NCBI GenBank assembly: GCA_003599815.1
Contig: QZJZ01000043.1
Coordinates: 1-60,208 of the forward strand
Source of the DNA: Candidatus Auribacter fodinae
GTDB lineage: Bacteria; Auribacterota; Auribacteria; Auribacterales; Auribacteraceae
Reading direction: 5' to 3'
DNA length: 60,208 nt
This document shows, piece by piece, positions 2,092-60,208 of the stretch. A program made the position numbers and the translations under genes. The notes under the pieces were generated by a model. The model did no database searches, was not told the origin of the DNA, and saw only the letters and a program-made list of their open reading frames with translations. Position 1 is the first letter of the stretch. Each line of letters starts with the position of its first letter.

Positions 2092-2418
2092 ATGAATATT
2101 GCGCAGCGTACATTTGATTCATGGATTATTCTGGACCTGAACGGAAAACTCAACGAGGTAACTGCTAAAAGCCTGACAGAAAAAGTTCAAGAATGCCTAA
2201 AAAACGGTCACATCAATTTAATACTGAATTTTAGAGGTATTGAGTTCATCAACAGTCCCGGACTGGGAACACTAATTTCTCTTACCAAGCTGATATCAAG
2301 AAACAAAGGCAAATTACGCTTAATCAATCTTTGCGGTTTTGTTTTAGAACTTTTTAAAGCAACAAAACTGAACACTGTGTTTGATATCTATTCTTCCGAA
2401 GAAGAAGCTATCAAGTAA
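2092..2418 (+). CDS. STAS-domain protein, anti-sigma factor antagonist-like
   Basis: A 108-residue single-domain protein of the usual SpoIIAA/RsbV length. It has the STAS pattern: strand (SWIILDLNGKL), helix, central strand (INLILNFRGIEFIN), then the loop S55-P56-G57-L58-G59 leading into the second helix, and a final strand-helix ending in DIYSSEEEAIK. Known: in partner-switching systems the motif is D-S-S/T-G-L-G and the second Ser/Thr is phosphorylated by an anti-sigma kinase to release the sigma factor. Here the Asp is Asn (N54) and the phosphorylatable position is Pro (P56), so classical control should be lost unless S55 substitutes. No kinase or phosphatase partner is encoded nearby. The ribosome site is weak: an AGGA lies about 12 bases upstream. 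The gene is divergent from the DUF4921 unit and convergent with the giant gene. Confidence 0.85.
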   Translation: MNIAQRTFDSWIILDLNGKLNEVTAKSLTEKVQECLKNGHINLILNFRGIEFINSPGLGTLISLTKLISRNKGKLRLINLCGFVLELFKATKLNTVFDIYSSEEEAIK

Positions 2419-2568
2419 TTATCTTCTGACTCTTTTTGTTACTAACCAAGACAAAATAATCCAGTGATACAGTTTGTTCTGGATCTTCCGCTTGTTTTTG
2501 TTAAACAAAGCTTTCTTTGCATACTCGGTTTTCGCGATTATGCAAATTCTTCCGCCATCTTCATCTTC
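2419..2568 (-). other. open minus-strand frame in the 3' gap, possible gene relic
   Basis: A 49-codon frame, open after a TGA at 2569-2571, overlaps the last 31 bases of giant gene 1 in another frame and ends with TAA at 2419-2421, directly abutting the STAS stop. It reads through an otherwise empty 119-base gap as a basic, partly hydrophobic sequence (EYAKKALFNKNKRK, then WIILSWLV, ending KRVRR). There is no ATG and no ribosome site. It may be the 3' relic of a gene replaced by the giant gene, or chance. Confidence 0.2.
2459..2484. terminator. weak hairpin between the convergent STAS and giant 1 genes
   Basis: ATCCAG and CTGGAT form a 6-base stem with a 14-base loop in the convergent 3' gap, 41 bases after the STAS stop and 54 bases after the giant 1 stop. 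On the minus strand it is followed by TATTTTGT, and on the plus strand by a loosely T-rich stretch. The stem is short, so it is at best a weak bidirectional terminator. Confidence 0.25.
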
Positions 2569-11500: not shown

Positions 11501-14500
11501 CAACCACTTCCGAATCAATACCGAACAATAAGTTGTATGGTATTTTCTGATTATTTGTCAGGCGCTCGCGAAAATCGCCGAATTCAGCGTCTAGTTTTTC
11601 AGTTTGTATAGCTCTCTGTCGTTGTAATTCGGCAAGCTGTCGAGCCTGTTTTGCATCCGGAGTCAGCATGCCTGCTAACTGAGACAGTATGGCATATGCC
11701 TGTTTAACATATTTATTATCAGCATCTTGTGATTTAATAGCAAATGCTCTGCTGAAATCTTTTAATTTAGAAACCAGTTTCCCTTCTTGTTTGAGTATAA
11801 TTTCTTCAAATCGGTCGTTGTTATACTCAATCGCTTCACGGCTCCCCTGTTTGAAATGATCACCTAGTACCCTAAGAGGGCCATCAATATATTCACTTTC
11901 GTAATCAAGAAGCATACTGCGTGCACCAACTGAAATCATATTCGCGCGAGAATTGATCCGTTCCAGTATAGCATCCTGATCAGCAGTTACTTTATGAGCG
12001 ATAACGTTATTCAAGATCGCTCCGTTCTCAATTACAACTTGTTTTCCTACTTTTACGTCTGTTAATTGCGCTCCACTGGCAATTGATGACTGTAAATTGG
12101 AATCAACAGCTATAGAACTATTGATAATAGTGACATGCTCACCAACACGAACATGTTCCCCCAGTTTGGAATTAATAAGGATCGATGCTTTTCCGACAGC
12201 ATCCTTATTAAATACTGTATTGCCAATCACTATGACTCCATTTTCAACAAAGACTTCCTGTTGAAAAATATGACGGAATAATGGGTTGCCGGACATTGCG
12301 ATCAACTGTTGAAAATCTCCTGATTGCTCAAGCCTTTTCATTTCAAATATTGTCAGGATATCAGGGTTTACATCGGTGACTTTACCGAAGTTATGTGCTT
12401 CTACGACACCGCTTCTATTTTTGCCAAAAACTAATAAATCTCCGCTAACTTCAAGAATACCTCCGTTTTTAATGGCATCAGTCAGCGCTGATCCGTAACC
12501 TTTCTCTAACAAATTGGACAATGTTTGACGCCCTAAATCAAGTACGATCTGTTGTTTGCCGGCAACAGTCAGTTCGATGCGATCAAGATCGATGCCGCCA
12601 GCTTTACCGGCATAAGCATCTGCCTGAATAGCGGCAATCACCGCTTCCCCAACAGTATTAATATCGGTAACATTAAGTACAAGAGTACGTTGTCCGTTCA
12701 CCTCTCTATATTCCACTACCGTGCCGCTAACGGTTGGAGTTTCTCCGCGACGAATTTCCTTCTGTGTCTGTGCTTCTGTCGCCACAACTTTTCCATCACG
12801 TATGGTAAGCTGAACTGTGGGAGTAACCATGTCACGTTTATCTTCAAGCGACCGTTGATCTTGTATAACCTGCATTGATCTGTTTGGATACAATGCGGCA
12901 GGGGAAACTTCAGCGGGTTCATAAGTACGAGGAATACCTTCAAAATCAATATTCGCCGCTTTCTTTTTTGTTATAAGCTGGGCTTGTTTTTCCTTCCCGA
13001 AAAACTTGAGAATGTTTGTGGTTGTTGTGTCAAGAACAGCGGCAATATTTGTCATTATTTTTTCAAAACGGGTTACTTCCGGCTGAGCCGCTTTTTTTGC
13101 AACCCGAGTAGCCTGTTCTATCCTGCGCATAGTAAGATCCTGACTGATACTGCGGCTCACTATTTCAGCAGTATTTTTCTCGCCAATATCAATTTCTGCT
13201 GTAGTTCGTTCGCTGAGTTCAACCTCCGAAAGGATTTCCCGTGATTTGGCAACAATCGCCTTTGAATAAGTGGTAACCAGTGCATCAAGAAATTTTTCAT
13301 ATTCCGTTCCGATTTCACGTTCAAATTCCGCTATCACCGCATCTGTAGCATCTTTGACCCTTTGAGTTGTCTGCGCGCGAACACGTATAACTTCGTCCCG
13401 AAGTGCATCGCTTACGCTAACAAATGCTTCACCGAGTACACCACCAAAAATAATGGTATCCAAGGTCAGCTCATTTTTTCTAACCTGCGATTGAATCTCA
13501 GTACGTTTTTGTTGGAGAAGATCAGGATTACTATATTCACTGCCTATTACAATTCCTAAAGCGCCAAGGTTTTTCTGGAGCTGTTCAAAATCAGCAGTGT
13601 TTTTTTGAGAAGAATCAAACTGTGAAAAGGCTACATCAATAACACCTAGAATTTCTTTTTGAGTCAAACCTTCTTTTTTAATTGCATCAAGTTTGGTTTG
13701 TAACTCATTCGTATACTTGTTTTTCAGAGCAGACCATTGTTCAAGAAGCCCGGCATTAGCAGATCTGAATGCATCATCAAGCAAATTCTGGTTAACAATA
13801 GTATGTTCTCCTGTTTTAATTTGCTCGCTGAGAAATTCCTTAATCTGCAAAGCATTCTCGGCTGTCACTGAGTCATCAACAGCAAGTCCAACCATGCGCA
13901 AATCGCGTTTTAGATCATCAAGGCTTTTACTCTTTTCAAACTGTTCAAAAATACTATCCAATACCTGCAAATTAAGCTGTATTGAAAAATCCTGTCCGTC
14001 TTTAGTCTGATACGTACCTGACTGAATGGAACTTTTCACTCTGCCGACTTCAAGCGCTTTCGTATATTCCTTTTCATCAAAGTATGATTTGGTGATACGT
14101 TTTTCCGAATCAATAATATCAAGATAATACTGAGCGTCTTTAAACAGATTAGCAAGATCACGCTCAACAGAGGCATAATCCATCAAGAGTTCTGCTGACC
14201 GTGCTACTGTATCAGCAGAAATCGGAGCTGGTAAAATATCCGCAAATGTCTCATTTACATACGATATGAATTCCTGTGGGGATTTAAAACTCTCGGCAGG
14301 TTTAAGCGTTGCCAGTTGTTGCTCCACCTTGAGGCGCAACTGAACATCTGACAAACCTTCACTTTCTTCCAACTCTTTCAACCGGGCAAGCGCATGAGAA
14401 ACAAGTACAGCACGTATAATTTCAGTATGCGTAGCGGCGACGCTGGAATCAAATCTGATAGAAATAATCTGAGAAAGATGCGCTTCAGTTAAACCAAATG

Positions 14501-17500
14501 ATTTGGCTTCATCAATAAGGCTCTGTTGGATATTGCCAGAGGCGTCAAAAAAATCCGTTCGTTGCTTAAGATCGGTTGTTAGTTTAGCGATAAACTTATT
14601 TGCCTGATCTTTGGCTGTTGTCTCCAGCATTCCAGTATTAATCAGATAATTCTGAATCTGATTCGAAAGATCTGTTTTTATACTGCTCATTTTGGCTGAT
14701 CGATCAAACTGAAGCGCCTGATCAAGCGCTGTTTGCTTCAAAGAACTGTCCACAGGACCAAGTAATGAATCAAATTCAGACTGCAAACGAGTCATAATAT
14801 CGGTCAGAGCTTGCTGGCGCTCGAGATATCGGTCATGTTTGACAACACCTTCGCGCGTACCAATATTTTCAAATGCGCGTACTGCTATTTGATCTCCGTC
14901 AGAATCCAGAGAAATCAATGTCTGTTCTGTGCGAGGAGCCTTCTGACGGCCGCCACGTCCAAAGAGCTGAATTGTAATACGTTCAGATAAGGAGTTTCCA
15001 ACCTCAAATACCTGATATCCATATGCACGTTCCACCCTGAAATTCTGAAGCACATCCCGCAACCGTCCGTTCAATGTTTCCTGCAAATATGAATCGGAAA
15101 CCTGCGCTGAGATAGCGGTCTGAAGCAGTTTGACGTATGCGTCAATGGCTTCGCCTTTTGCTTTGCGTGTGAAAAGATCTCTGTCTGAATCAAATTGATC
15201 AATAATACTGTTTATTCCCGAATAAAGAATATACTGGGGGTTTTCCTTAAACTGGTTCATCACTACCTGCACATCAGTTTCTGATGCTTGTTGAGGAGTA
15301 GACGGATTAACAATTAAACGGGCCAGCTCACGCAAAGATTCTTGATTCGTATTAAAGTGTTGAATTAAAGAACGTTCAACAGTGTCATTACGCAAAATTG
15401 AATCAAATTGCCCCATATCAAATAAACTTAACTTAAAGTCTTTACCACGAGTACCGTATGGAGAAATAAAAGTCACACTGCCCCGCTCTCCTGCCAATTT
15501 CAGGAAATTCCGTTCCTCTTCTTCAGTCTTAAACGAACTGCCGTGAAAAACATAGACTTTGGACATTCTGTCAACAGTCGTTTCGAGTTCCGAAACGGCA
15601 TCCCTGACAGCCGATATATCCGGTAATCCCTGCCGGATAGCTTCAGGCAACGCATCATTGAAGCGGAAAAGGATATTAGCGAATTTCAATTCATCTTTCG
15701 TCACATCGAGACCGGAAAGCTGTTGGATTAATATATCAAAATTAGTGACAACATCCTGTAAACGAGCAATTTGTGCGTCGAGTTGAGCAACCAAATCCAT
15801 GTTATTCTGAGCTAAAGCATCCTGTCTCTGCTGTTGTAAATTATCCAAAGCATTTGTTAATGTTCCTTTTTCCTTGGAGATCTGGTCAAAATACTCTGAA
15901 TAGGAATTATACAGCACCGATTTCAACTGGCTTAAAGCCTGAGCGGCTACTTCAGCTTTGGTCTTTAGGGTCGGATCGGAATCCGAGGCACGAACAGCCA
16001 TCGCGCCGCGTATTTGCATCAGGATATCACGGATGTTCTGTATTGTTTCAGTCGTTTTCGCATCTGCAGGGATTATTGACTCAAAGGCAGATAACTGTTG
16101 CAACACTTGCGTTTCAAATTGATCGAGAGCTGATTTATACAACTGTTCAGCATCACTTTCATCACGTGTACCGGCAAGAATCGGAGCACCGTCACGATTG
16201 GCGAAAATTGACTCTATCTGTTGCAATAAATACGCGTCACGCTGCTGTTTAGTCTTAAACACAGCGGCATCACGACGTTCAATAACTTTTTGTATAGCAG
16301 GAGGTATTTCAGCAATGATATCTTTCTGGAATAGTTTCTCCATTTCTTCTCTGGCAACTTCAGTAGCGATAGAGCCGCTAAATCCACTAAATTTTTCGAA
16401 AGATTTTATAACGTCAGCCCCGCCAATTTTACCGGAGGTAACGCTATCGCCAAGCACATCTATATTAACTCCCATGAAATATTTAGCGTATATTTCCATG
16501 ACCGTATGACGATGATTGCTCTGACGCTCGTTTCCATGGTCACCCTGACTTTTAATCAGTTTGATATCCTTTACGATACCCTGATCATTGCGAACCAGTT
16601 CTCCATCCTGATCGTATTTATCCTCAAGTACCCAATGCACTTTTTCCTTATGAAAGAGATGCTGTTCAAGCGTAATGCGAACAATTTCGGTAAATTCCTG
16701 TTTTGCAGGCAATTCAACTCCCTGCTGCTGCGCCGACTGGTATACCTTGTCTATCATGGAAAATATTTCAGATCCCTGATGAAACTCGATAACTTTATTT
16801 TCACGGGTACCCTTGATAGTATAAAGGCTTGAATCCTGAGTCGCAGTTTTCAAGCGTGAAAACAAATCCCTGAATACGGAATAATTCTCATCAGTATCAC
16901 GTTCTTTTGATATTTCAGCGCCTTCACCACGTATTTGCAATACAAAGTCCCACGCTAACCGGTATTTCTGTACTTCCTTGGCTTTCAGGGAGTCGCTAAC
17001 TTCAGCGTTAATGAAGTCCATCAGCGACCCTTCAAAAACAAGAGCGTCGATTTCATCAAAGTTGGCATACGCAAGTTGCTGGGGAAGCATGCGTTCCTGT
17101 TCCGTACGGGTAATGTCTTCCAGTTTCATAAAGGCATAATCTGAAAATGGCATATATATTATTCGAGGGGTAAGCGGAAGCCCCTGTTCTTCGCGCTGAT
17201 CACGCCGCATGAATAATTCTTTAGCTTTGTTTCGATCTGTTTCGCGTGTAACAACCTCTATATCAACACCAAGACGCGATAGAAAACCACGAACTTCGTT
17301 TGCATCATTTTTTGCGAATGCCTCCTGAGTAAGGAACTGTACAGCAGTTTCTCCGGAAAGCGCATGAATATATAAAGCAAGCGCAGATGTAATGGTTTTA
17401 CCTTCACCTGTACCCACATTAAGGATACCGCCATTTGCCAGCAGAGAGCCGGCAAGCAACTGGATATCGTGATATACATAACCTCGCTCCATGAGCATTG

Positions 17501-20500
17501 CCATTGAAACAGCGGTAAACGCATCTTTAATCAGTTCCGCATCAACGTGCCCATTTATGAGGTCATGATCGCGATATTTATTTTGGAGGTCTAGCGTAAT
17601 CTGGGATAAACGCTGGTTGACAACCTGCTGGTATTTATCAGAGCGAACAAGGTCGGTACGCAGCATATTCTGGAGCGCAGACATATCCATCTCAAGAATG
17701 TTGGTTCGTTCGCTGAGTATCTCAGGAGATATCTCTATTTCCCTGCGAAGCTGCAGCTGAACCTGATCGGTCAATTTTTCATACTGCTCACCCGCCTGAC
17801 GTTTTTCTTCCTGTTCAGCTTTAAATTCAGCGATTTTTGTTTCCAATTTCTTGGTAATTTTTTGCTGTATGTACGTTTCTGTAAGATACGCTTTTTTAAG
17901 GTAATCAATAGTCGCCGTATCGCCACGAATAAGGTCATTATACATCGCTTCAAAATTTGGGGTCGCACTGTCTATATAGTTTTCTTTTAACAGGCTCAAC
18001 GCTACAAATCTTGTAACCAGATCCGTAATATCCATGCCTGAAAGTTCCGCAATCCGCTGTGCATTACCCTGCTGGCCCTCAAGCTGTATGATCTTGTCAA
18101 TTAAGACTGATTCGCGGGTCTGGATGTTTTCCATGATGCTTTTAAGTTCACTGGCAAAACTCAAGTTGCGCATACTCATAATTTGAGTAAGCATGAACAA
18201 CTGTTGAACGTTCTCGGGACGGACAGTCTCAATGTTCAAACGTCCCAGCTGTTCAAGTAAAACATCCTGATTTTCAAGAATTGTCAGATTGAGGAAAGCT
18301 TGGTCTTTTGCATCAAGCACAGAATCAATTTGGCTATAAATGCGTTCCAAAATAACTTCTTTCTGTTCTTCAGCCATTTTTTTAAGCTGAAACATATTTC
18401 TTTCCTTACCCCGGACATTGATTAGAAATTCCTGTTGGCGAATAAGGTTTTCAGCATAAGTATCAATATCTTGGGTAAACGTAGGAACATCTTTCAGACG
18501 AGCCTTCACTGCCGACAATACAGCGCGTGCCAGCGCATCATTCACAGATGAAACACCCGGCCTGCTGAACGCTATTGCCAAAATAGCCTGAATATCCTCA
18601 TTAGTCAAATTGGGAGTATTCTTTATAAAATCAACGAGATTCTGGTTAAATGCTTTACTCATCAGCATTTCACGAACCAGATTAATATGCACATCCTGTT
18701 TGGCGCCTTCCAGATCAACAGTGTATGTCTGAATGTCAGAACCTGCGCGCCTGAGATAATCCCTGAAAGTATCAACTGACTTGATTGCCGCTTCAATATC
18801 AGCATGAATACTGGTATTTACTGTTTGTCGCTCAATTTTAGATAATTGCTGTCCCTCAGCTCTGTCTTGCTTTTCGACAAGGCCGCGATACTCCATTTCA
18901 ATATCAGATCTTTTCTGGGCATGTTTTTTCTGTTGTTCCTTGATGTTTGTCATTTCTGTTTGAGCGGCATTTATAATTGCCTGATATATACTCAACTGAC
19001 CGACATTTTGTGCATCTTCCCGACTCCGTTCATGCTGTTGCGATGCTCTGTTCATTTGAAACGCAATTAGTTCCTTTTTCGCTTCAAGCGAGTTGATTTG
19101 TAATGTTTGAATTTCAGCTTCTTTCTGTAAAATTTTTACGGCATATGAATTAGCCGCGACAGTATCATTTTTCGCTTTAGCTTCTGAGTACAAATTACGT
19201 ATTTTTTGAATTTCACGTTCCAGAGTGCTGATTTGCTCAGCAAAAGATTTTAATGCCTCATCTCTTTGCTTAATAGCTGGAGTAATGCCAAGATCAATAC
19301 CTAATTCCCGTTGAACTGAAGTATCCAGCAGGTTCAGGACTCTGATAAATGCACCAAGTACAGCTGTGGTCGTTGCTCCGTCAGTAATTGTCTTCACGGC
19401 AAATTCAAAACGACGCCCCTCAGAATCATATACGACGAGTTTGTTACCTTCAAGATGAGAGCTCGGCAGTTTATCTATCGCTGTAGTAGAAACTTGTTGA
19501 AATTCCTGTAATTTGAGTTGTCCTCCTTTAGCAAGGTCAACTTCATAATTTACATTATCAATACTGATCTGGTGAACTGCCGTGTCCCGGATATCACTAA
19601 ATGCATAAAGATTATTAGTCGCCAACTGTCGTACAAGCTCTCTGGCACGATCCGCTTCATCCGTGAAAGATTGAACAGAAACCGCATTATAAATATCATT
19701 AATAACAGCATCAGCAACTTCAATCTCTACAAAATCCAACCGCCGATTCTGCGTTGCAAGAATCTGATTAATATACTGTTTTTTAAGATCAACTATACGG
19801 CTCTGAGCAACAGTATCTACCGCCGTAAGTTTGGAAAGCCGATCAATCTCTGCCTGAACGAGTGTTACGGACGTCGCGTCTGGCATCGGCCTGACCTGCT
19901 CAGGCAACTGCATTTTAAACTCATGTATCAAAGTCCCATCCGCCTGATAAACAGATGTGGCAGAATTTCCTATCCGGTCAATAACCGTTTTGCTATGGCC
20001 AGTTATAACACCCTCACTATCACGTAATAAAGTCACTTGAAAAGAATTGTCCTTATCCTGAAAACTGATCACAATTTCTTCATGAGCAATAGTGCCTGCT
20101 TTTTGATCAAGCACTTTCCTGATTGTTACACCATCAAGCTGACGTTCAGTAAGATTCGCCACATCAACAACGAGCGTTTTCTGTTGTCCTTCTGGGCCGA
20201 CCGCAAAATAAAGAAACTCTTTACCGCCAAGTTCTGCGAGTTTCCACTGCTCAAACTTAATGACTTTATCAGACTGATCACCGACAAAAATATCCATGGA
20301 CGGTATATCTCTCAATTGTTCCTGCTCGCGTTGTGCGAGTTTTTCTTTCTGGCGGATTAACGCCTGAGCCAACCTGTTCTTTTCTTCCTGAATCTCCTGA
20401 GTTCGCGTATCAATATTCTGAAACCTTTGGCGTAATTCTTCTTGTAAGGATTGTTCAGTCACATATTGGTCAAGGAACAAATCGTTATACTGCGCAGTGA

Positions 20501-27512: not shown

Positions 27513-27579
27513 AGCTCACCATCCCTTTATATGTAACTTTTCGTTATGTATAAATATCTTCCAGACGCATTCGTGTAAT

Positions 27580-27608
27580 ATAATACATAAATCATACATG
27601 TACAACAA
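27580..27608 (-). promoter_or_regulatory. predicted promoter of giant gene 1
   Basis: On the minus strand TTGTTG (27608-27603) and TATTAT (27585-27580) are separated by 17 bases, in the 103-base gap between the two giant genes, giving a leader of about 60 bases. A perfect TACATGTA palindrome lies in the spacer. This would let giant 1 be expressed independently of the 32-kb transcript of giant 2. No terminator hairpin is visible in the gap. Confidence 0.4.
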
Positions 27609-27615
27609 AGACTGA

Positions 27616-42600: not shown

Positions 42601-45600
42601 AGCCGCTGATGCAACATTGTTCATCAATGCACCCATCGACTGTACCGCAGATCTCTGAGTAATCTGAGCAAGGCTATTAAACGAAGTGTTTGTCGTTAGT
42701 GTGTTCATCGTATTAACTGTGTTAAGCAACGCTGTATCAAATTTCTGCTGGTTAACACTGACGTTAACTCCAGACTGTGACCACGAAGACAACGATCCGA
42801 GAACTGAGCTCATCGTATCAATTCTGCCAAATTTCTGCGCGTTCGTTATGGACGGCGAAGATATTGCTGTAGAAACCGTAGTCAGCGCGTTATCCATGAT
42901 CTTGCCAAGATCCGTCGAGAACGTCCCGCTAATATCGGCTGTTCTAATAATACCGGTATTAACAAGGTTATTTGCCGCATTATTGAAATTCACAAAATCA
43001 GAAACCTGATTAACTGTTGAGAATCCTGAGAAACTCCCGGTTCCCGCTTTTGCCGAATAAACAGATTGAACGATATTTTTGATGCTTACGTTGGTAGCGG
43101 CATTGGTCTGAATCCCTGCTGTTACTTTTAAAGCATTTACGTTGTTCAGCGCTGTAGTGAACACATTCAGGTTTGTATTGCTGATTGCGGTACGCTGATT
43201 GTGCATATAATTGATTACTTTTGTATTCAACTGAGCTATCGAATCAAAGTTGACTGACGATTTATTGACCATTCCGGTGTCAACAACTTTCAACATCGAA
43301 TTAATTGACTGTGCCGCGATCTGGGCGGTCTCAACCGAATTAAGTTTCAGACCGTTTATGAAGCTTTGCTGGGACGTTACAACATTGTTCATACTGTTGC
43401 GGAAAGTTGTATCCTGAACATTTATAACACCTGACGAAGCAAGATTCGTGATGTTGTTCATAACATTGATCGAATTATTGAACCCGATAATGTTCGATAC
43501 CACACCTATTCCCGCGTTAGCGGACAATGAATCGGTTACACGGGTCGCTAATGCGGTCATATCATTCACTGAAACAGAGACGCCAACATTCGCTGACCGA
43601 ATAGTCTGCATTGTTCTCATGAACTCATTGATGCGCTGAATATTCTTCGCATCCATGATTGAATTAAGCTGGAATTCATTGGCGTTGTTCATGAAACTGG
43701 TCAAACTGCTTGCCGTAGTATTCATCTGCGTGCGGAGATCCGTATACGATCCGGCATTTAAGTTCACCATACCGGCACTTGACAGATTCGAAAGAGTGGT
43801 CAACGTGTTATTGTGAGTATCAAAGTTATTCTCATTAATCACTGTCGGAGCGAGCACTGTTTTCGCCACATCAGTATAGGTATTTACAAACGAAGTCATA
43901 GACGAGCTGATATTCGAAATATTGTTATTCTGAACCAGAGTACTGAGGTTATTCACCAGCGTGCTGGCAGAAGCAAAATTAGACGGAATCTGAGTGTTCA
44001 ACTTCGTAATATTGCTCTGGCTGTTAAATACCGTGGAAATTGTTTGGAAAACATCGGTATTTCCAAGCGACTGAGAAATAGAGAGGAAATCAGCAATGTC
44101 AGTAAAATTGATCTTATTCGCAACAGTCGTGTTTATTGCGTTAAACCGATTATTCAACTGAGTCGCCGCCAGATTCTGAACGTTGGTGAATTGAGTCTGG
44201 ACGTTAGAAGGCAGAACTTCCTGTGACTGAGTCATGCGAGCGACTGCTGACAAGGCTTGTTTCTGAGCGTCAAGGCCAACAACGTTAAGATCAACATTAA
44301 GATTCAATACTGACGAAGCGACATTAACGACGAATTTCTGCAATTGCGTCTTCTGAGTGTCAGTCAAACTACGTGTAACATCAGGACGTGCCAACGCTTC
44401 AGCCGCTTGTGCCGTCTTAGTCATTATGTTGGCAAGAGATGCGCCTGTCGGGATATTATTGACGTCGAAACCTTCTGTAGCTATAAGGTCAAACTGTCCA
44501 CCCTGCCTGAAGTCAGTATCAATGTTGAAATCAGTGAGAATATCCGCAACGCCGCCAGCCTGTGCCTGAGCTAATGCTGACAATATCGCTAACTGGCTTG
44601 GTCGTGTACCTTCAACATTAAAGAACATTCCTGTCGTTTGAGAAAAGCTCGGCGCAAGTAATCCACGAGTTGTCAAACCGAGGTTAAAGTTCTGAACATC
44701 AGCAATAGCCTGCTGTATAAACTGGACGTTCTCTACGGTCAATATCTTCCCGCCAGCGGCATTGGATATAGACTGAGCAATACTTGTATTGCCTCGTATT
44801 AAAGATGCGAATACGTTATTGACATCATTCTTAAAGTAACTTGTTGATGCAGTACTCAGTTCAGTTACTGCAGTCATAACTGTTTGCAGAGCAGCATCCT
44901 GAATAGCAGATACATTAACGCCTGCCTGCTGAAATGCTTGTGTTTGTTTCGCAAACTCAGTTTTAACTATATCAGCCGCAGATTGTTTGGTTAATGTACC
45001 CGCTTTATTTTGTGCAGCAAGCTGATTCGCTATATTATGCTGAACAGTCTCAGCCGCTCTCGACGCACGCTGATTCTGGTTATTCAGGAGTTGCTGTCCA
45101 GTCCTTGCAACAAGAACACGATCTTGGAAAGCCTGTCCCACAAGCCCACGATACTGACTTACAGTTGTCTGTGCTTGTGAAGCAAGCGCAGATAGTCCCG
45201 CTCCAACAGCTCCGGTTCCGGTAAGATAAGAACCGACAACACCACTAAAAGCACCGGCAAGCGCACCGCTAAAGAAGGCGGAGAAAGCGGCACTCGCTGT
45301 ATCTTTTACGACCACATTATCCGCACCAACCGTGCTCTTCGCAATACTTGCCGTTAAAGCGGCGGATAGCGCATTAGCGGTACCCTGAACAACAGCACCA
45401 GTTAATGCGCTTTCAACAACTGTTCCAAGGAACGCTGTATTAAAAGCAGTAGTACCTCCCAACAAAGCATCCGGGCTGGCAAAAGAGGCACCAGGCGTCA
45501 AGAATAATGCAGCAAAATTTGCAACAACCTCAAGAGCAAGTCCAAAAGATTGTTGAACTATTTGCTGTTGCTGGATAGTTGCCGGTACTGCAGTAGATCC

Positions 45601-48600
45601 GCTGAAGAAGAAATTCTGAATCGAAGTCGGGAGTGAACTCCTAACTACAGCTCCAACAGCTTTTGTAAAATCACTAAATGATACATCACTCAAAGCAGTG
45701 CCGCCAAACAATTCCTGTTTTAACGCCATAATTTCCGTATTGAAAACAGTGACCTGAGCACCATCTACATTAATTTCTGTGGTCAGAGGACCGGTGAAAG
45801 GCGATATGGCTTGCTGGAATACATTTCCGACAAATGTACGCACAAGACCATTCTGCTGTGCCTGTGAGTATGATGAATACTGACTCACAGTATTCGCCTG
45901 AATAGCTGATATACCTCCTTCACCTGCCGGATCAACAAATTCTGCCAGTTGTTCACCAATAGCGTGAGCTCTTTGCTTATCAACACCAAACGCAATTAAT
46001 ACATCAGCAATAACGCCACCAACAATATCTTCCACAACGAATTCATCAATGAGGAAGTTCGCTAGGAATGTAAAATGCTTGGTAAAGAACGCGCTGAATG
46101 CCTGACTGAGAGTACCTGCGCTAAACCGCAGGTTAACACCGACAAGCCTTCCTACTGTTCCGAAAACAGCACCAAGTACACGACCAACAGCGCCAAATGC
46201 AGTGCCAACACCTCGTGAAGTTAACTGACCAGCATATGACAAAGCCCTAAACTGCGGAACAAGATTCAGAATCGGCCGGGCTATCGGACTGATAAATGGG
46301 AACAATAAACCAAGTTGCAGACCCTGTACAAAACTTTCAGCAACAACATTCAGTAAACCTTCTTTCTGGATACGCTGGCGCTGTAAGTCGGCAGCATTAA
46401 TTATGCGAGCAACCCAAGTTGTTGGCGAGAAACTCTTTGATCTAGCGTTTTCGTTGATTTTAGCTTCAACAAATTTATCGAGCGCCTCGCCTCTCAAACC
46501 AGTAGTAAGCGCATAGTAGCCTTTTGTTATACTACGGAGCAAATCACCTATAAAAGGCAATATAATAGGTGTAATAGCATTCAGCAACGCCACCCTAAAT
46601 ACCTGTCCTGCCAGTGCCTGACCGCCAACCCAGAGCGAGCTTGCAAAACCTTCAGTTCTATAAGTAGTCATAAAGTTTTTATAGAATGCTCTTCCAGCCT
46701 GACTACTTCCGCGAGTAACCGCTTCGTTATTTGCCAACAGCCTGCCTATAAAGCGGGCAACGGCCTCGCTGAACTTCATTTCGCCAAGTCCCACTTTCCC
46801 TATAGTCAACGCCGCACGGCCAATGCCACGAATCAATCCGCCAAAAACATTGGTAATGGCTCGCAGTATATTCGATCCTAACAATCTAAATGACAATGTG
46901 ACATTTTGATTCGCCAGCAATTTGAGCATTCTAAAACTTGATAGGTTTTTCAGTTCTTTAACGGATTTGCCAGTAGCTGTCGAGATATCCTTGAGAGTAT
47001 TAAAGTAACTTCTATTACCGATTCTCAAAATTCTGGTTCCAAGTGTTTTAGCAGCCTGACCAAAATCCTTAATCGCGGTAAAAAGTTTGCTTGTAGAAGG
47101 TTTCAAAGCAGTACCAATACGGCTCGCAATAGTTTGTAATCGCCCAGGCACAGTCTTAAGGAAAGTCCCGATATTGTTTGCAAGCTGACTCGTTGGTGTC
47201 TTTGAAATATAAGCTATAGCTCTGGATATCTTTCCACTCTGCAGAAATGTTGAAATACGTGTGGCAATGCTTGATAAACGCGCCGGTAAATTCACAAGGA
47301 ATTTGCCAATAGTAGTTAAGCCTCTTCCATAAGCTACAGTTACACGTCCAAGCAATGAGAATCCACGGCTAATATCGCTCAGTATGGAGCCTACAAATCT
47401 TCCGATTGCACCCAGTCCGCGAATTCCACTTGTGAATGATAGTACCCGTGTAGCGAAGTTACCAATAGCTGTTCCGATTCTCAACAATACTTGACCAACA
47501 GTACGTACAGCAATCGCCGCTAATCGTATGGCTGTTCCAACAAACTGAACCGCAATTGCCGCTAATCTGCCTATCGTTGAAGCTATTTGACCCACTATCG
47601 CGATAGTTCTGGCAACAAAAGCAACACGGCTAATAACAGTTGCAACCCGTGCAACAACAGTAGCGACACGCGCAACAGCCGCGGCGGCTTTCGCAACATT
47701 AGCGATCACACCTGTTACCCGTGCAAAAAGACCAGCGGCAATACCCGACGTAGCGCCAAAAGTAAAGAAGGACAATACTGTAGTGACCACCGCGAGCACG
47801 ATATTAGCGGCAAGATTGATATATATACCTGTTTTATGGAATTCAGTAAATTCGCTTAACTGTCTTTGGCCTTCAGCAAAATTTCCAGCCGCGAATTCAC
47901 GTAAAGCTATGTCCTGCCGAGCCTCAACTAACCCACGATGCCCCAAGAAAATACTGGTTCCAAGCAATTCAAAGTTCTTACCGAACCGAGCTTCCAACCA
48001 CCATCCAAATCCTTTTCCGTCACCAGAACCTGTTATGCTCTGAACAATACTCTTCGCTCCGTAATAAATGCTTTCTCCAACAATCTGCAGTAAGTTTATA
48101 GCAAGCTCTAATGGATAGAAGACTACTTCAATCACTGGAGATATAATGTTCGACCACAACTTTCCAAGGAATGATGTAGGACGGTCATCAATAACAGCTT
48201 TCGCTTGCTGAGACCAAACAGTAGCGGTTTGCTGGTATCGGTTGTAATCCGAATTCGCAACATACCCACTGAGAAATGCTGTCAACGGTTTGGCATTCAA
48301 ATCTTCAGTTTGTAGTGTAGCCTGTGCTGGATTACCATTTAAATAGTTACCGATTTCTTTACCAAATATATCCATAATATTATAGACAGGAGCAACGAGG
48401 AAATCTAAAGCTCTAAACAATGTATTGTCAGTATCGACTCCAAAGAAATTAGCTATGGTGCTGACAGGGTGAACAAGAGCATTCCACACTTTCGCGAAAA
48501 ATCCCTGTTCCTGTTGCGCCGCAGTCGCCTCTGCAAGTTGATTCGCTGCCCCAGCAAGCTGTGCATTTGCCTGTTCCACTTGAAAACGATCGCCTTCCGG

Positions 48601-51600
48601 CGTCATTGCTTCATAATTTGCCTGCATTCCCTGATCCAGCAGATTTGCAATAGCATAATTCGTTGCTACTTCAGTATTCTGAGAATCATTCTTAAGCTGG
48701 CCGACTGTCGGCATGTACGATTGAATAAGATTAATACGTGCCTGAGTTGGGCCTCCAGCGAGCAACTGGAATACAGCGACTTTTCTGGGGTCAAGACCGC
48801 CTTCTGCAATGCTGTTTGCCTGCTTTACAATCTTTTTGTCAGCGCCTTCCTGCCCAAACGCCGCCATCAGCATTTCTCGAGTAACTGGATCCTGTACCAG
48901 CGGAGTAATTGCTTTGATAAAGTCCATATCGACATCATCGATAAAATCATACTGCATAACACTGTATGTGGTTCCCGCAACGGTGACATCTGCGAGGCCG
49001 CCCAGTGACAGGAACAGAAGATACGGAGTATTAACTACATCGCTAAGAGTCTTAAACTGCAAGCCCTCAGAGAACGAACCAAAATTACCAAATACATAGA
49101 AGAATTGCTCCTGAATAGAAGCGGCGATACCTTTAAACAATTTAAGATCATCACCAGTAGCAACGCTCTTAAAGAAGCTGATATCAGAAGCTGTTCCGAT
49201 ATTCATATTTCGTACGTCCGTCGATACATCTGTTGCAGTCTCTCTGTATGTAGCGAATTCACCAAGCGCGGCATTCCCAAATGTCTCAAATCCCTTCAGA
49301 CTCAAACCAGCAAAGAAATTACCACCATATCCCAACTCATTGAATGTGCTGATAGTCCCTTGAGCACGCCCAATATTTTCACGAAGTGTGGCAATTTTTT
49401 CTTCAACATTACCACCTTGTACACCTGATATGTCGATCGAGGAAGGGTCAACCCTATCAAGGAAACTGCTCAACTGCGCACCCTGAATACTGGTAAAATT
49501 CTGGAGACGAGTCAGAGCGCTGAAGGTTGTTGAACTTAACATAACGTGCACAGCTTCCACTGTATATAATCGGGAGTATTGACCGTTTTGATTAAACTGA
49601 TAATATAATTGTCCGTCATTGCCAACGATCTGTTCTGTTCCGCTGACCAAGCTTACGAGCTGGTCACGAACCGAACCATTATATGCGCTCTGGAAGAATT
49701 CCAAAGACCCTTTCCCGTCTTCTCCTCTCGTTAAAACTGCCTGCAACCCACGATACTCATCACTCAGTTGAGAGCGATCAGATACTACATGTATATCGCT
49801 GAGTTCAGCATTTTTCTTCGTTGCGTCAATATTATTTGACTGCACTGTAAATAATGACTGCGTCGTATTATTACGGGCCGCAGTGGTAGCGGCAACATCC
49901 ATAATCTGGAATAAATTAAATAATAATGGATTAATACTGTTGAATACGAAGCCAGTAGCATCTTTCTGCTTGAAGTAAAGATCTACAAAAGCCCCTGCAT
50001 TGAGCAAATTATCACCATCTATAGCAAACATCTCCTGCATAAGGAATGTAGTGAATGCTTTTTTGTCATTCAATATAGAAGGATCATAAAGTGTGGCTGA
50101 ACGGAACTCTCTAAGCGCCGCTACACCATTAACTGAAGTTTCAAGGGCAAGTTGTCCGCCCACACTGGTAAAACGTTGAGAGATTCCTTCTGTTTCCCAA
50201 TTTCTAGCCACATCAAATAAGGCAACTCCGCCAGCAGTAACTTCACCGCTTGAGTTAAGATAAAAGTCATAGAAAATAGCGGAACCAAGTGTAGGCACTC
50301 CACTAGCATTTGCCGTAAACGACACAAGAGGAATCGCTTTATCATTCGGACCAATTACTGTCGTACCTGCCCCAAACGTAATGTTGGAACTGGCAACATA
50401 TTTCTGTCCTTCTTCGGTGAGCTGTATATACCGCTCAGGTCCATTAAACAAACCAAACTCTGACATTGCGCCAAGAGTATTTCGATCGTTATCAAGCCCT
50501 TTATAAGCAAGATATTCATTCAATCTGCTAGTACTGAAGAACGTATATTGGTTGTCATACTTGCTGTATATCAATTCGGATCCCAGTACTTTACCGGTAT
50601 TCGGATCTACAAACTGAAATCCATGGCTAAATTGTGAATGAGACCTAACCGCTTTATAATTGTAGGTTAGAGTGAGGTTTCCCACTTGAACCTCTTCCGT
50701 AACATCATCCACCTTAATCTGGATACCTTTGGATACGGTATAATATATTTGTCCGCCAAACGTAGAATCCAACCCTTCAACTTGGAACCTGAAGCTCTGA
50801 ACTATGACAATACCTTCAGCTTTCTGCTGTTGAGACTGCTGGAGCTGTTTCTTTGCCTCAAGCAGTTGCGAAGAATAGTTAGCCTCATTGTTAATATCAA
50901 ACCTGTTTGCCTGATTGAAGATATATGTAATACCTGTCGCCTGTGTAGCTAAAGCGATAACGTCTTCACCAGTAGTCATTTTATTCTCTGGTGTTTGTTT
51001 TTTCAGGAAATCCTGATACTGCTGATAGCTGAGGTAATCTGTTTTTCCTTCCTGCTGAACTATAATTTTCTGTTGGAACAACGCATCAAAGAATGCACCG
51101 TCACCCATATTAACAGCCGCTTCCAGAGCAAAAGCGGCACCACCCGAACGGAACAAATCAAGCCCGCCTGTTTGCGCAAGGTGGCGAATAGCTGTACCAA
51201 GGTCATCATATTTGTTTAAATAATAACTGTAGGTTTGTTGAGCTTTGAAGACCGCGACATCTTTCTTTATTGCTTGCGCAAAATTATCCAATGATTGCTC
51301 AGAAGCATAGCCGGAAAATACAAACTGACCGCCGGACAAGCTGTAAATCTTTGGCGCCGTATCAGATGGAACACCATTACTAAAGCCGCGTTCCATTAAA
51401 GTAGCACTGCCGCCTGATGTCCGGATCCAGAACTCATTCACCTTTGTAGTTTCATTGGTTTGAGCGCCAAGTTCTTCTTCGTCAACAAACCCGTCACTGT
51501 TCGCGTCATTCCATTCATATACTATGATTACACCAAATCCTTCTTCGGTGATGTAACCACGAGTATCAATGATAGTGTATTTGTCTGAACCAGTCGGGAT

Positions 51601-54600
51601 AAATATACGTTGTACACGGCTGGTATGGTCGAGCTGAACATCATAACCGTTATAATCAATAATAATATTGTTAATTGCGGCATTAGGAATCTGGTTAGTC
51701 AAGTCATTCCATTTTGTCTTGATGTCATTGAGATTGACCGCTGAGTTCGGGTTAGTCTCGGAAACATTAACTGTCGCATAGAGATCCGGATCACCAAAAG
51801 ATCCCAGTGAATACGGGCCGGTTACGGCTGATAACGGAACAAGCATTTCGCCATCAAGCCCAACTTTATCAGCAATATCATTGTTCATACGGGCCCGTGC
51901 CTCAAACGCAACTTCAGCGTTAGCGAGTTTCGGGTAGTACATCTTTTTACCGCCAACCATTTTTTCTTCCAGAGTAAACTGCATTGTAAAAGCGGCGGCG
52001 CTTGTCGCAACGTATTCCTGTACAGAACCCCATTCCTGTTTATTGAAGAGGGTAACAATGTTTTTGTAGTCAGCATTGCCATTCATGAAAGACAGCAGGT
52101 CTGTACCGCTTAGCCCGAGGAAATATGGATTAGATATATCTTCGCCATCCATATAAGCTCGTAATGTTTGCGGAACATAAATCGAGTTTTTATATGGGTC
52201 GGTTGCTGTGGCCGTGTATTCTGCACCAGTCTCCGGGTTCGTACTGGTAGTCAACAATGGCGTCCAGTTAAAATCGAGGAATATAAAATCATCCTCAGCT
52301 GTTTTTTCTTGTGGAGATGCAGATCCGCTTGAACCCTTAAACAGGAATTTTATTAATTCCGCAAAGCGGTCGAGATGGTCGCCGCCTGAAATACTGCTTC
52401 CCGGATCAAGGCTGGATGACACAGCTTGTCTGTCAAGACCAAGAGGCCCTGCGCTACCAGAAGCGCCAGCCAGTTCTGCTGAATTCTGGTTATAACTCTT
52501 ACTAATATCATCGACAATACCACCATAGAAAACATTATCCAGAGAGAACTGAACGAAGAAATCACGGAAGTTCTTAGTGGCACGAGTGACGTCTTCCGTA
52601 ACAGGTACCCATCTGCGTCCTTCTTCTTTATAAACAGTGTCTGGTACTGTAAACGGCGAACTCAACTCATAAAAATAACTAATTCCCGTGGCAAAAACTA
52701 TATCATCCTGCACAGTAGGAGTGATCCCGGACGAACTGCCGGAAGCGTCCAGATAAAATTTATACAATGCAGGCATAATACGTTCAGCTGTCTGAAGTAT
52801 AGGATCCTTGCCGTATATTACGCTTAAATCATTTAGGAAGGACGAATTCAACCAGTATAACGCAGTACGTAATGCAGACCCTTCTAGGTATGAATCTGAA
52901 CTAGTATAACTGCCTTGGCTATACATACCAGACCAAACCAAACCCTTGCTTCCATACGAATAGGAGTAGTCACCAATGAGATCCCAACTGCCGACCGTCG
53001 GATTGTTAGACCATCCACGGCTTATATTGACGTTGTACCCTGAGTAATAATCCCAATCATAATAGAAATCTACGTTATCTTCATCATCATGAGGGTTATA
53101 AACAATCGCCCCATTATAGACTTCGTCATATCCGGGTGAATTATCATACAATTCCGCAAGGTTATAGAGCCAATTGTCGCTACGGACGATATCGTTGTAT
53201 CCCGGTATATCGTATCCTTTGCGTGTTGTCATATCCTTACCGTCATCAGGTAAAATAAAGAGCATTTTATCCGGCCCGGTAATGACAAATTTCACTAACG
53301 TCTCGTAACTACCGATGTTCGGGTTAGATTGGCCTGCTTCAGGAACCCAGACTTTTTCTACAAGCAGTTTTGTAATTTCAGGCTGAATAAAGATTTTGCC
53401 ATTGCTTGTCCCACCACTCTTATCAAGGTATATAACTGACGCATACGGCTGAACGTTCGGCGCAACCGGTTCAGCGGCATCATTATCATAAGGACCAATC
53501 AGATTTGTCGCACTTTCGGTTTCACCCCAACCATTAATACCGACAACAAGTTCAGCATTGTCATCATCAAAATAACTGCTTAACCCGCCTGAATAGTAAT
53601 TCTGATAAAGTTCATCAAGTACATATTTCCATTTCTTGCCATTAAGACCCTTGACCTTAATCCACTGTTTCGGTTGTTGGAACTGCTCTTGATGTTCTGC
53701 AACATCATATTTCGCTTCCTCGCTGTCAGCGAAATTAGTTTCAACGTCGGTTCTGCTTCCATAAGTCTTCTGCCAGTTATTGTCATACGCAGTGGTATCG
53801 TCAAGCAGATATTCTTCCTTCTGAATAATCAATGGTATTGCAGTACCATTCACTGATATAGTCAGAATTTTGCCGCGATTATCGACACCAAAATGGATAT
53901 CATCGCCAACACTCAATATTTCTCCGTCATCCTCACGCTGCTGCTGATAGCTGGCAGAAACACCATCTTCACGTGACAACATCCATGTCATATTGCCAAA
54001 ACTATCGTAGTAGTAACTGTAATGATAATCCGCAGGCGGACGATATCCCTTGCTCGGGTCATTCGGATCGATCAAAGTACCCTGGCCCGTATCATTACGA
54101 TATTGATAAATGAGGCTTCTTCCGTTGTACTGGCGGCCTGTATACAAATATGGGCCTTCCTTGTTAACCTGATATTTCAAGTATTGCTGATAATACTTAG
54201 ATTTCATCAACCGGTCACTCGGCATATGGCTGGTTGATACAATGTCGCCGATTTCATTCAGGGTATCAATCCTGCTGGAAGTAGTGTCAAAACTGGTAAC
54301 ATAAGTTTCAAGGATTTTACCATTCGCGTCAATCTGATAGCTGAATGTGCGGAGAGTTGTTCCGTCATAATCTTCTACTTTGACCTGCGGCGTGCCGTCT
54401 TCCATAACTGTGTATGTATCAGTCCAGTATTCAGCATAAGGCAACGGGCTCCATGTTAAATCAGACCGATATTGTTTAGTTGTGGCTCTCTGTACAACAC
54501 CGTCAGCGGATACCAGGTCAATCTTTTCCGGAGTTCCGTCACCAGATCTGTTCTGGAAATTAGGTGTAGGACCGGCGATAAACTCAGTGGAATAAGTTGA

Positions 54601-57600
54601 CTGCAAAATACCGTACGCATCGTAGACATAGTGTTCCTGCGGATAGTATTCAAACGTATCTTCAGTACGTACACCATTTTCAAGACCATGTATAGTCAGC
54701 GTCTTTTTCATACGGGTTACCGTTTTTACCTGTCCGAGCAGATATGGATTAGAAGGATCATCGAAATACTCGTAAATAACCCTTCCGCCACTTGCAAACT
54801 CAAGATGCTGTTCGGTCATATAGCTCAGGTTACCGTCAGCATTAAAATTATAGTATATGTCATCGGTATAACTGTACCCCGGCGCAGAACCTGACACTGC
54901 AATTCTGCGTGCCCGACCCCATGTTAAGGCATCAGTATTCGTCTGATAGGTATAATAGTCGATAGTTTTATAAACAGTGCCGCTGGCATTATTGTCATCG
55001 AATTTGACATCGAACTCTGTCTCATAGCTCTTCTCTAGGATAGTACCAGTTGTGTCATATTCATACTGTACCACAGTGTCCGTGCTTGAATCTGATGTGT
55101 ATATAATATTACCGAATTCATCATAATGCCGTTCAACGACTTTCTGTTTCCCTGAAGGCCCGTGAGCCAGAGTTTCATATGACTTGTTAATCACACCACG
55201 CGAATCAATCTGATAGCTATAATTCAAAGTTATATTCTGGTGATTTGTATAACTCGACAGATGCCCCTTCGCACCACTAAGATTGTTGGTATTAAAATTC
55301 ATAGAAGCATTAATCGACGTGTTTGCAGATTCCAAATTGGTGCCGTCATAATCATAGCTTGTCCTGATGCCGTTTCTATCACGAGCCAGAGTAATCAGAT
55401 CCTGATAGACTGGGTCAAAATCAACTGTATTAGTCAACTGATAACTGGTACCGGCATTAACGTAGCGTCTTGAATTTTCATAACGTTTATTGATAACACC
55501 AGTCCACGAATCTATGTCATACGTAAAGTAGTTGGCAGGACCCTGTACATCACTGTATCCCGCAACCTGGCCTTCCCATGTGCCAGTTGTATAGAAAGAC
55601 GTAGTTTGCTTACGTACTGTATCATAAATACTGGTTAATTTCTGGCTCAAAGGCGCAAGATAATGATAATCTGAACGATGTCCCAGCCGATCTGTCGAAG
55701 AGAGGATATGTTGTGTTACAGGATCAAGTTGACGTGTTGTAATGTTATTAGGTGTCACCGACGGACTGGTCGTTGTATAGGTGCGCACAATATTTCCAAG
55801 CGTATCAGTTTCATAGCTAAACCGCACATCATTGCCGCTCTGGTCAACTGTGTAGTCAATCAGCCCTCGTTTATTAAGATCCGTATAATAATAAGTAAGG
55901 TTATCCAAGCTGTCACGGGTCTTATCAAGCGCGCCATCAGGAGTATAGTAATAACTTGTTACGGCACCCAATACATCAGTTGAGCTTTCAACCATCTCAT
56001 CAGTGTTAAATCTGCGTGTTGTTATTCTTCCGAGGAATTTGGCATTCGTTTCGTAACTTCTGAGTTTGTACCCTTCGCTATCCAGTTGATAACTATAATA
56101 TACAACTGGCCCGTCATAATTGCTGACAGATTTTAACTGGCCTTCATCATCACCGGAAGTGTAGAACTTCGACACATTATCCAATGTATCATATACTGAG
56201 TTCAAAACGTCACCGCTTACATAACTGTAAGATGATACAATGCCGTTTTTGTCAGTCGAAGTATCAACATTACCAGTAATAGTATTAAACCTGCGGGTAG
56301 TATAGCGAGGTGCGATTCCCCGTTCTGTTTCAAAACTACGAATAACCTCACCACTCACCATTTCATATGAATAGGTAGACAATAACTGGTTTTTCTTATA
56401 AGTAGAAGATACCTGGCCTTCAAATAAACCGTCGGTGTAGAAATACGATATATTATTTCTCTTGTCATAAACACTTACCAAACGGTCAATGCTGTCATAG
56501 ACGAAAGAAGATACCCTGTTCTGCGGACTGGTTGAGGTTTCTATATTTCCGCTGTCCGTATTAAATTTCCTCGTGGTGACTTTAGTCGGATCACCATTCT
56601 TCGATTCAAACGACCTCAACAAGACATAATCAGAATCAAATTCATAAGAGAATGTGGCTCTCAACTCGCCATTTCTTGAAGTCTCTTTTACCTGGCCTTC
56701 CCAGTATCCGTCCGTATAGAACTTGGTCACGTTGGTATTGGTATCCCAACTGCTGATCAGGCGATCAATACTGTCGTAAGAGAATGATGAAACTTTGCCA
56801 TACCAATCGGTAGATGTTTCTATGTTGCCGTTATCAGTATTATACCGGCGAGTTGTATACTTGTTTCCGGTCGCGCGTAACGCAGTCTCATAACTGCGCC
56901 GTGTATCACCGCTCACCATTTCATAAGAGAAAGCTGTCTTCTGAACACCATTTTTATACGCGCCGCTGACCTGGGCTTCCCACGCGCCGTCAGTATAGAA
57001 CCGTGTAACATTGTTAAGTTTATCCCATGTACTCACTAAGCGATCGATAGTGTCATAATCATAACATGTCACTCGTCCAAACCAATCCGTGGAGGTATCG
57101 ACATTACCCGAATCAGTATTAAATCTGCGTGTAGTAACCTTGTTGCCTGATGCACGAATAGCGGTTTCATAACTGGTGAGAACATCACCGCTAGACATAT
57201 CATAACTAAATTGGGTTTTAAGAGTAGTGTTTTTCGATGTCTGCCGAGCCTGACCTTCCCATTCGCCGTCTGTGTAGAACTTGGTCACATTTCCACGGCT
57301 ATCCCATAGACTGACAAGTCGGTCTATGGTGTCATAGTTGTATGACGATACACGACCAAACCAATCGGTGGATGTCTCAATATTACCGGTATTAGTATTA
57401 AATTTACGCGTTGTGAACTTATTGCCGGATGGCCGGATTGCGGATTCATAACTATTAACCACTTCACCGGAATCCAAGACATAACTGAATTGTGTTTTAA
57501 GAGCGTTATTCTTCAAAGTTTGGCTGACCTGGCCTTCCCAAACTCCGTCAGTATAGAACTTCGTCACATTATCGCGGGTATCCCATATACTTACCAAACG

Positions 57601-60208: not shown

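Follow-up and report, generated by a model that had tools for sequence, protein, structure and literature searches.

A giant gene pair of Candidatus Auribacter fodinae and the G1 family of probably exported, cysteine-poor proteins with a predicted TIKI-fold head

The window analysed here, the entire contig C15 (60,208 bp) of the Candidatus Auribacter fodinae genome (here termed G000; 3.54 Mb, 105 contigs, 91.6% complete), is made up to 95.6% of two adjoining giant genes, G1 and G2. G1 belongs to a family of 35 proteins of this genome, in which a head with a predicted TIKI fold is followed by a cysteine-poor and often enzyme-bearing body. The bodies are likely exported, with G2 as a likely exported partner of G1, and a probability of roughly 50% is given to this reading. 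At the level of sequence, the shared head, the fall in cysteine, a C-terminal motif, kept enzyme signatures and the order G2-G1 are directly apparent. A preliminary description of the window had taken the pair for one surface or contact-dependent system. The leaders and the loss of cysteine would be in keeping with this reading, but it leaves out the main point that G1 is one of a genome-wide set of proteins with this head and a cysteine-poor body.

G000 probably belongs to the phylum Auribacterota rather than Omnitrophota. The latter was rejected as the phylum of the window, with Candidatus Theseobacter exili, probably from the same phylum as G000, being listed under Candidatus Auribacterota in the NCBI taxonomy. 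Comparisons were made mainly with G001, a relative from another genus of the same family in which 29 head-bearing members formed the comparison set, and with G002 from a third genus. The positions of the features are given in Table 1.

Table 1. Positions of the described features, in window coordinates unless a contig is named.
Feature	Position	Strand	Remarks
G1	2538..27512	-	ATG start, complete, 8,324 residues; 2 Cys, none after the head
G2	27616..60207	-	10,863 residues on contig C15, 5' end open; 1 Cys
Gap from G2 stop to G1 start	27513..27615		103 bp (116-125 bp in G001)
G1 hydrophobic leader, predicted export signal	27414..27512	-	residues 1-33; from sequence
G1 head, predicted TIKI (EreA/ChaN) fold	25995..27413	-	residues ~34-506
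G1 SecA-derived ATPase core	14865..17687	-	residues 3276-4216; GEGKT 3369, DEID 3486, GRGGRQ 4185
G1 possible left-handed beta-helix (hexapeptide) module	12006..12260	-	residues 5085-5169
G1 C-terminal tail	2541..2558	-	MAEEFA (LAEEFA in G001); outside the family tail pattern
G2 YD/RHS repeat array	57021..60208	-	tandem units of 276-279 bp; likely carries on in contig C9
G2 hydrophobic region	45235..48147	-	residues 4021-4991; 8 windows above the hydropathy threshold; possible membrane-inserting part
G2 helicase-like core (superfamily 2, SF2)	30328..32307	-	residues 9301-9960; GGGKT 9302, DEIH 9412, TMTGT 9737, GFGRDRG 9954; weak
Three head-bearing frames in a row (L009-L011)	G000 C9 28801-60265	same strand, upstream of the likely G2 start	2,679, 2,958 and 4,709 codons
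DUF4921 family gene, ordinary neighbour	530-1861	-	E 2.4e-189

A shared head and a cysteine boundary

The head comprises the first ~500 residues of G1. The 35 G000 frames that start with it, three of which have no 3' end on their contig, sum to 103,208 codons between stops, which corresponds to 309.6 kb and 8.7% of the genome. The head had no Pfam match. Across 55 aligned rows, H64, E93, and H464 were invariant, and the nearly invariant D62 was present in 90% or more. The TIKI superfamily (EreA/EreC esterases, ChaN, HopBA1, and RRSP), for which two histidines and two glutamates are described as the catalytic residues (PMC6254334), resembles the head in its predicted fold and in two histidines and one glutamate. 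The head differs in that D62, two residues ahead of H64, replaces the other glutamate, in a large helical insert, and in that it fronts very large proteins, unlike the superfamily comparators.

Members continued to resemble each other between genera beyond the head. A G001 match extending past the head was found for 31 of the 35 G000 members, and 21 of the 35 were reciprocal best matches, with the largest pair sharing 51% identity over 9,691 aligned positions including the head. Hydrophobic leaders scored above the threshold of 1.8 (15-residue test) in 29 of 35 G000 members and in all 29 G001 members. The leader of G1 scored 1.60 and is thus under the threshold and weaker than that of most members.

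A pattern for the C-terminal tail, [DENG]x[SATM][LAIMV]-end, was written after inspection of the G000 C-termini. It occurred in 29 of 32 complete G000 members and in 25 of 29 members of G001, a second set containing many orthologs of the first, and in 2 of 108 (G000) and 0 of 51 (G001) other open reading frames (ORFs). G1, its G001 ortholog, and G2 do not match it. A stricter form of the pattern was rejected as a phylum-wide mark, as it occurred in 1 of 32 cases in other lineages, where many C-termini end in SL, SV, or AA.

Cysteine accounted for 1.08% of head residues in G000 and 1.21% in G001. In the 50 residues after the head it accounted for 0.11 and 0.28%, respectively, and over all residues behind the head for 51 of 84,789 (0.06%) in G000 and 81 of 83,612 in G001, so that a boundary just after the head is found in two genera. 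Other G000 ORFs below 1,500 residues (93 ORFs from five contigs) contained 470 cysteines in 40,379 residues (1.16%), and other G001 ORFs 316 in 18,845. The bodies hold cysteine at 0.05 times the background, a depletion of about 20-fold, followed by tryptophan as the next most depleted residue at 0.58 times. Export in general does not account for the loss, since other G000 ORFs with a hydrophobic N-terminus keep 0.78% (122 of 15,707 residues). Size alone does not account for it either, since cysteine is at a normal 0.95% in a leader-bearing G001 frame of 3,489 codons outside the family, which is truncated at the contig edge. Cysteine was absent from 17 of the 35 bodies, and several of the leftover cysteines are closely spaced; autotransporter passengers are described as tolerating only disulfides between closely spaced cysteines (PMC3546941).

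Heads were also seen in other settings. In other genomes, five head frames (L119, L121, L122, L134, and L143) measured just 516-561 codons with 0.6-1.2% cysteine, and in P0014 the head is joined to a CPBP protease domain. The head-bearing frame at G001 C22:70151-144010 spans 24,620 codons with some stretches masked.

Enzyme cargo of the bodies

Domains of cytosolic type were located in 15 of the 35 G000 members. The three paralogues on contig C9 carry phosphoacetylglucosamine mutase/PGM with beta-helix modules, GATase, and PPDK with HPr, and the genes between them are presumably gltB/gltD-like, judging from their appearance. The member on C26 carries three tandem glutamine synthetases (GS), and its six cysteines all lie at or before residue 431. 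Sigma-70 was matched twice in both the C60 and the C102 member, in each case once over the cut-off and once, more weakly, under it, and there is a weak match on C1. One C18 member contains a protein kinase twice together with HEAT repeats, another a GNAT domain, while ARMT1 and CofD are combined on C29. C19 carries a methyltransferase as well as an 838-codon member with an HD-GYP signature, C3 carries CheR, and C5 carries HAD. Pooled scans, in one of which the best 25 of 31 families were listed, also matched iPGM, phosphorylase, glycosyltransferase, signal peptidase II, and metallophosphatase without assignment to members; the 2,958-codon frame on C9 was scanned as far as its C-terminal third. 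Members on C10, C16, and C8, when scanned singly, gave no domain over the cut-off. Within the scope of these scans, the Pfam matches listed for the pair and for the further 34 members included no C-terminal beta-barrel family of autotransporters.

GS-bearing bodies are present in all three genera, with three copies in G000, six in G001, and three in G002. In the nine further genomes covered by the GS search, no frame of more than 1,000 codons contained GS. One embedded copy matched a solved GS at E 7.5e-72. All seven GS motifs tested were present in each of the three G000 copies. In G001, four of these motifs occur in all six copies, another two are each missing from one copy, and the last is missing from three; the G002 copies were read in part. 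Signatures were likewise kept in the kinase (K, ND..KPDN, DFG), HPr (GLHARP), HD-GYP, and PGM (TASHNP) domains, and a 6,202-codon G001 member had five kinase matches.

Two further observations concern these enzymes in the relatives. The PF00120 matches in G001 and G002 include no free GlnA-type GS of ~480 codons, the embedded copies being accompanied only by a GS-like frame of 712-714 codons. A kinase match at G001 C19 ~316341-316622 lies within a 28,618-codon open frame, which exceeds every family member seen in length.

The pair G1 and G2

The two adjoining giant frames on one strand, as first described, were confirmed. Each frame has a single stop, which is its last codon, and the next-longest stop-to-stop frame in the window measures 466 codons. 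On a 449-kb contig of G001, a G1 ortholog of 8,229 codons between stops lies downstream of the C-terminal part of G2, at a distance of 116 bp if its start is GTG and of 125 bp if it is ATG. The open frame preceding the ortholog matches G2 residues 8421-10863 at 30% identity. The pair is thus kept in this relative, and an assembly artefact was rejected, because the G2-G1 order repeats on this contig and stops interrupt neither frame. A 7,682-codon frame, open at both ends, takes up the whole of G001 contig C32. It contains YD repeats and gives a match to the middle part of G2; we infer that it is part of the same gene as the G2 end on C20. In G002, two G1 pieces of 2,321 and 3,782 codons were found on small contigs.

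The preliminary description placed a motor ATPase in each of the two genes, which held for G1 and is weakly supported for G2. Residues 3276-3718 of G1 matched SecA_DEAD (PF07517) at E 1.3e-23, scoring 84.2 bits (cut-off 24.6). A four-row profile of the core matched SecA chains at E 4.8e-24, with the printed alignment covering the nucleotide-binding pieces only. DEAD was the sole SecA Pfam family matched in the sequence, and the preprotein cross-linking domain and the helical scaffold/wing were unmatched. Because only the DEAD and nucleotide-binding parts match, the core is classed, from its sequence, as SecA-derived and not as SecA proper, of which the genome has a canonical copy of 1,016 codons on C8. 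The G1 core and SecA have the DEAD core with its GEGKT, DEID, and GRGGRQ motifs in common. The G1 core differs in that it sits inside a predicted exported protein without cysteine after the head, with the C-terminal part of SecA, as well as its cross-linking domain, unmatched. Divergent SecA DEAD domains in giant ORFs have reportedly been noted by West-Roberts et al. in a bioRxiv preprint of 2023. The hexapeptide module reached E 0.011 in G1 and E 5.8e-6 in its G002 ortholog, both under the curated cut-off. A GGDEF domain, considered for GGDE at residue 5767, was dropped, as no such Pfam match was found in G1 or its orthologs.

G2 matched Pfam DEAD at E 9.9e-5 with 22.6 bits, below the cut-off of 26, and a motor in this gene is at most suggested. 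Its helicase motifs are kept in G001, where the core region is 46% identical, and a profile of the core, searched against 44 genomes of the phylum, gave matches in G000 and G001 alone. The core had no PDB match of weight, none of the 7,999 candidate proteins scored was a homologue at E 0.001, and comparison of its profile with that of the G1 core revealed no relation. On these results, the reading of the G2 core as a SecA relative was set aside, and the core was left as a weak assignment.

G2 leaves contig C15 within its tandem repeat array, the relatives of which were confined to C15 and C9 in a search of the G000 contigs (7 matches at E <= 0.001). Contig C9 contains, on the same strand, a 3,780-codon frame with its first start at 11340, which begins with a hydrophobic leader, continues with acidic repeats resembling calcium sites, and ends in YD repeats at the contig edge. 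YD_repeat_2x and RHS_repeat were matched at E 7e-83 and 7.9e-73 in this frame and at E 1e-40 and 7.9e-13 in the window part of G2, respectively. Since the leader-bearing C9 frame ends in the same repeats, G2 very likely starts on C9 and comprises at least about 14,640 residues. The search for its start beyond 60208 has thus very likely led to C9 position 11340, by way of a join between C9 and C15 that we infer from the repeats. G2 has no family head, and the single cysteine of its C9 part lies inside the leader. Rhs-type polymorphic toxins have YD/RHS repeats followed by a DPxGL-type boundary and a C-terminal toxin domain. The repeats are present in G2, but no DPxGL was found in the window or C9 part and no toxin family among the Pfam matches, so that an Rhs toxin was rejected.

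Two other frames were noted. A small frame at window 2092-2415 on the forward strand, convergent with G1, is presumably STAS-like (anti-sigma antagonist type) by appearance. In a genome from another family of the phylum (G006 C42:33271-73170), a 13,300-codon frame has, close to its C-terminus, a related core of SecA-like type and is possibly a relative of the pair.

Known systems, alternatives, and the proposed export

Giant genes have been published from this region of the tree, along with a proposed role in predation (PMC10066038, PMC12057145, PMC12419801). The giant ORFs of Omnitrophota are described with transmembrane helices, adhesion, and few annotated domains (PMC10066038). Those of Omnitrophota and candidate phyla of the Planctomycetes-Verrucomicrobia-Chlamydiae (PVC) group resemble the present genes in very long single frames, predicted export, and proposed contact with prey or hosts, while the available portion of PMC10066038 describes no TIKI head, cysteine step, common tail, or tandem housekeeping enzymes. 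The gigantic lipocone proteins of an Omnitrophota branch, attributed to probable predators, carry polysaccharide biosynthesis, methylase, and signalling domains (PMC12419801). They share enzyme domains within giants with the present family, and the accessible text describes no such head, tail, or cysteine pattern. No lipocone family was among the Pfam families listed (the best 25 of 31 in the pooled list), where no search by name was made.

From the Auribacterota, a ~6,000-residue protein of Candidatus Menyafoubacter is described with a Sec signal peptide, a predicted extracellular location, a Rhs-toxin-like part, and adhesin domains, as well as carbohydrate-binding beta-helix and polysaccharide lyase domains, and is read as carbohydrate-degrading (PMC12057145). 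It shares a leader, a YD/RHS-type part, and probably the phylum with G2. It is much shorter, and neither a helicase-like core nor a SecA-bearing partner is mentioned in the sections available. The consecutive Giant1-5 genes of Apilactobacillus kunkeei encode 3,000-8,000 residues each and take up about 6% of the genome (PMC12863079); they are surface proteins of a lactic acid bacterium and resemble G1 and G2 by description only. MARTX and other multi-effector polyproteins likewise combine several effector domains in one long exported chain (PMC6254334), which is a comparison of function without a claimed sequence relation, and the cargo of the present family is of housekeeping type. In the literature matches listed, giant proteins are nowhere combined with a TIKI head, with the loss of cysteine, or with housekeeping enzymes in tandem, as far as titles and the beginnings of abstracts show. 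To this extent, and as far as the excerpts of these sources reach, the head, the cysteine boundary, the C-terminal tail, and cargo made of housekeeping enzymes in tandem appear to be new.

The best-surviving alternative is that the proteins are cell-surface adhesins or coat proteins, in which enzyme domains were recruited as inert structural folds. The leaders, the YD and calcium-binding-like repeats in the C9 part of G2, and the loss of cysteine agree with it, and such a function was proposed in print for the giant ORFs of Omnitrophota (PMC10066038) and has a parallel in the Auribacterota protein with Rhs-like and adhesin domains (PMC12057145). The motif loss in some GS copies of G001 also fits inert folds. 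When the leader test was applied to the first 60 residues of other ORFs, 44 of 95 passed, so that this test alone says little. Inert folds should, however, lose their active-site motifs, and these are kept in the GS copies of G000 and in the kinase, HPr, HD-GYP, and PGM domains, which leaves the structural explanation rather improbable.

It is less likely still that the enzymes scavenge in the periplasm or at the surface of the producer, fed by ATP and metabolites of lysed prey. The same signs of export and the sugar-phosphate and nitrogen enzymes of the cargo would agree with such a role, but sigma-70, the SecA-derived ATPase, and CheR have no obvious use outside the cytoplasm, and the cysteine content kept by leader-like proteins means that periplasmic residence alone cannot explain the loss. 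Mega-enzymes working as a scaffolded assembly line in the cytoplasm of the producer, with the leader as an anchor, would suit the cytosolic enzyme types and tandem GS copies that might form part of a ring, but are very unlikely, as the cysteine-specific depletion after the head is unexplained in a reducing cytoplasm and cysteines are retained in the canonical GS (8 in 483 residues) and the canonical SecA (11) of G000.

In the preferred reading of an exported family, the leader would direct the protein into the Sec pathway. Retention behind the outer barrier is suggested for the head by its normal cysteine content, and the head would likely cut or hand over the body. The body would cross a further barrier, which may be the cause of the cysteine purge, and the C-terminal tail would act as a sorting mark. 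The cargo would then work inside a different cell, in the cytoplasm of an organism which the producer would attack or live on. SecA cores, PPDK, GS, sigma-70, kinases, GNAT, and methyltransferases use ATP, RNA polymerase, S-adenosylmethionine, or acetyl-CoA. Families of these types occur in 10 of the 15 members with located domains (sigma-70 in three, and two methyltransferases), and the cytoplasm of another cell is for this reason the most likely place of action. The SecA-derived core of G1 would be a cargo ATPase, and G2, with its YD repeats, hydrophobic region, and helicase-like core, may serve as the contact or delivery partner within the same transcription unit as G1. The fuller proposal, in which a fleet of exported polyproteins forms a second, cysteine-purged set of housekeeping proteins, marked by the TIKI-fold head and the C-terminal tag, that runs or rewires the cytoplasm of another cell, is put forward tentatively and is on balance doubtful.

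The giant genes of uncultured PVC-type bacteria are known, but most of them have been unreadable. With a recognizable head, a cysteine boundary, a C-terminal motif, and readable enzymes, they become a testable class, in which one can predict the signal for export, the site where the chain is probably cut, and the cargo it carries. If the cargo does act in another cell, the family would provide a means of delivering entire housekeeping enzymes, transcription initiation factors among them, in place of toxins.
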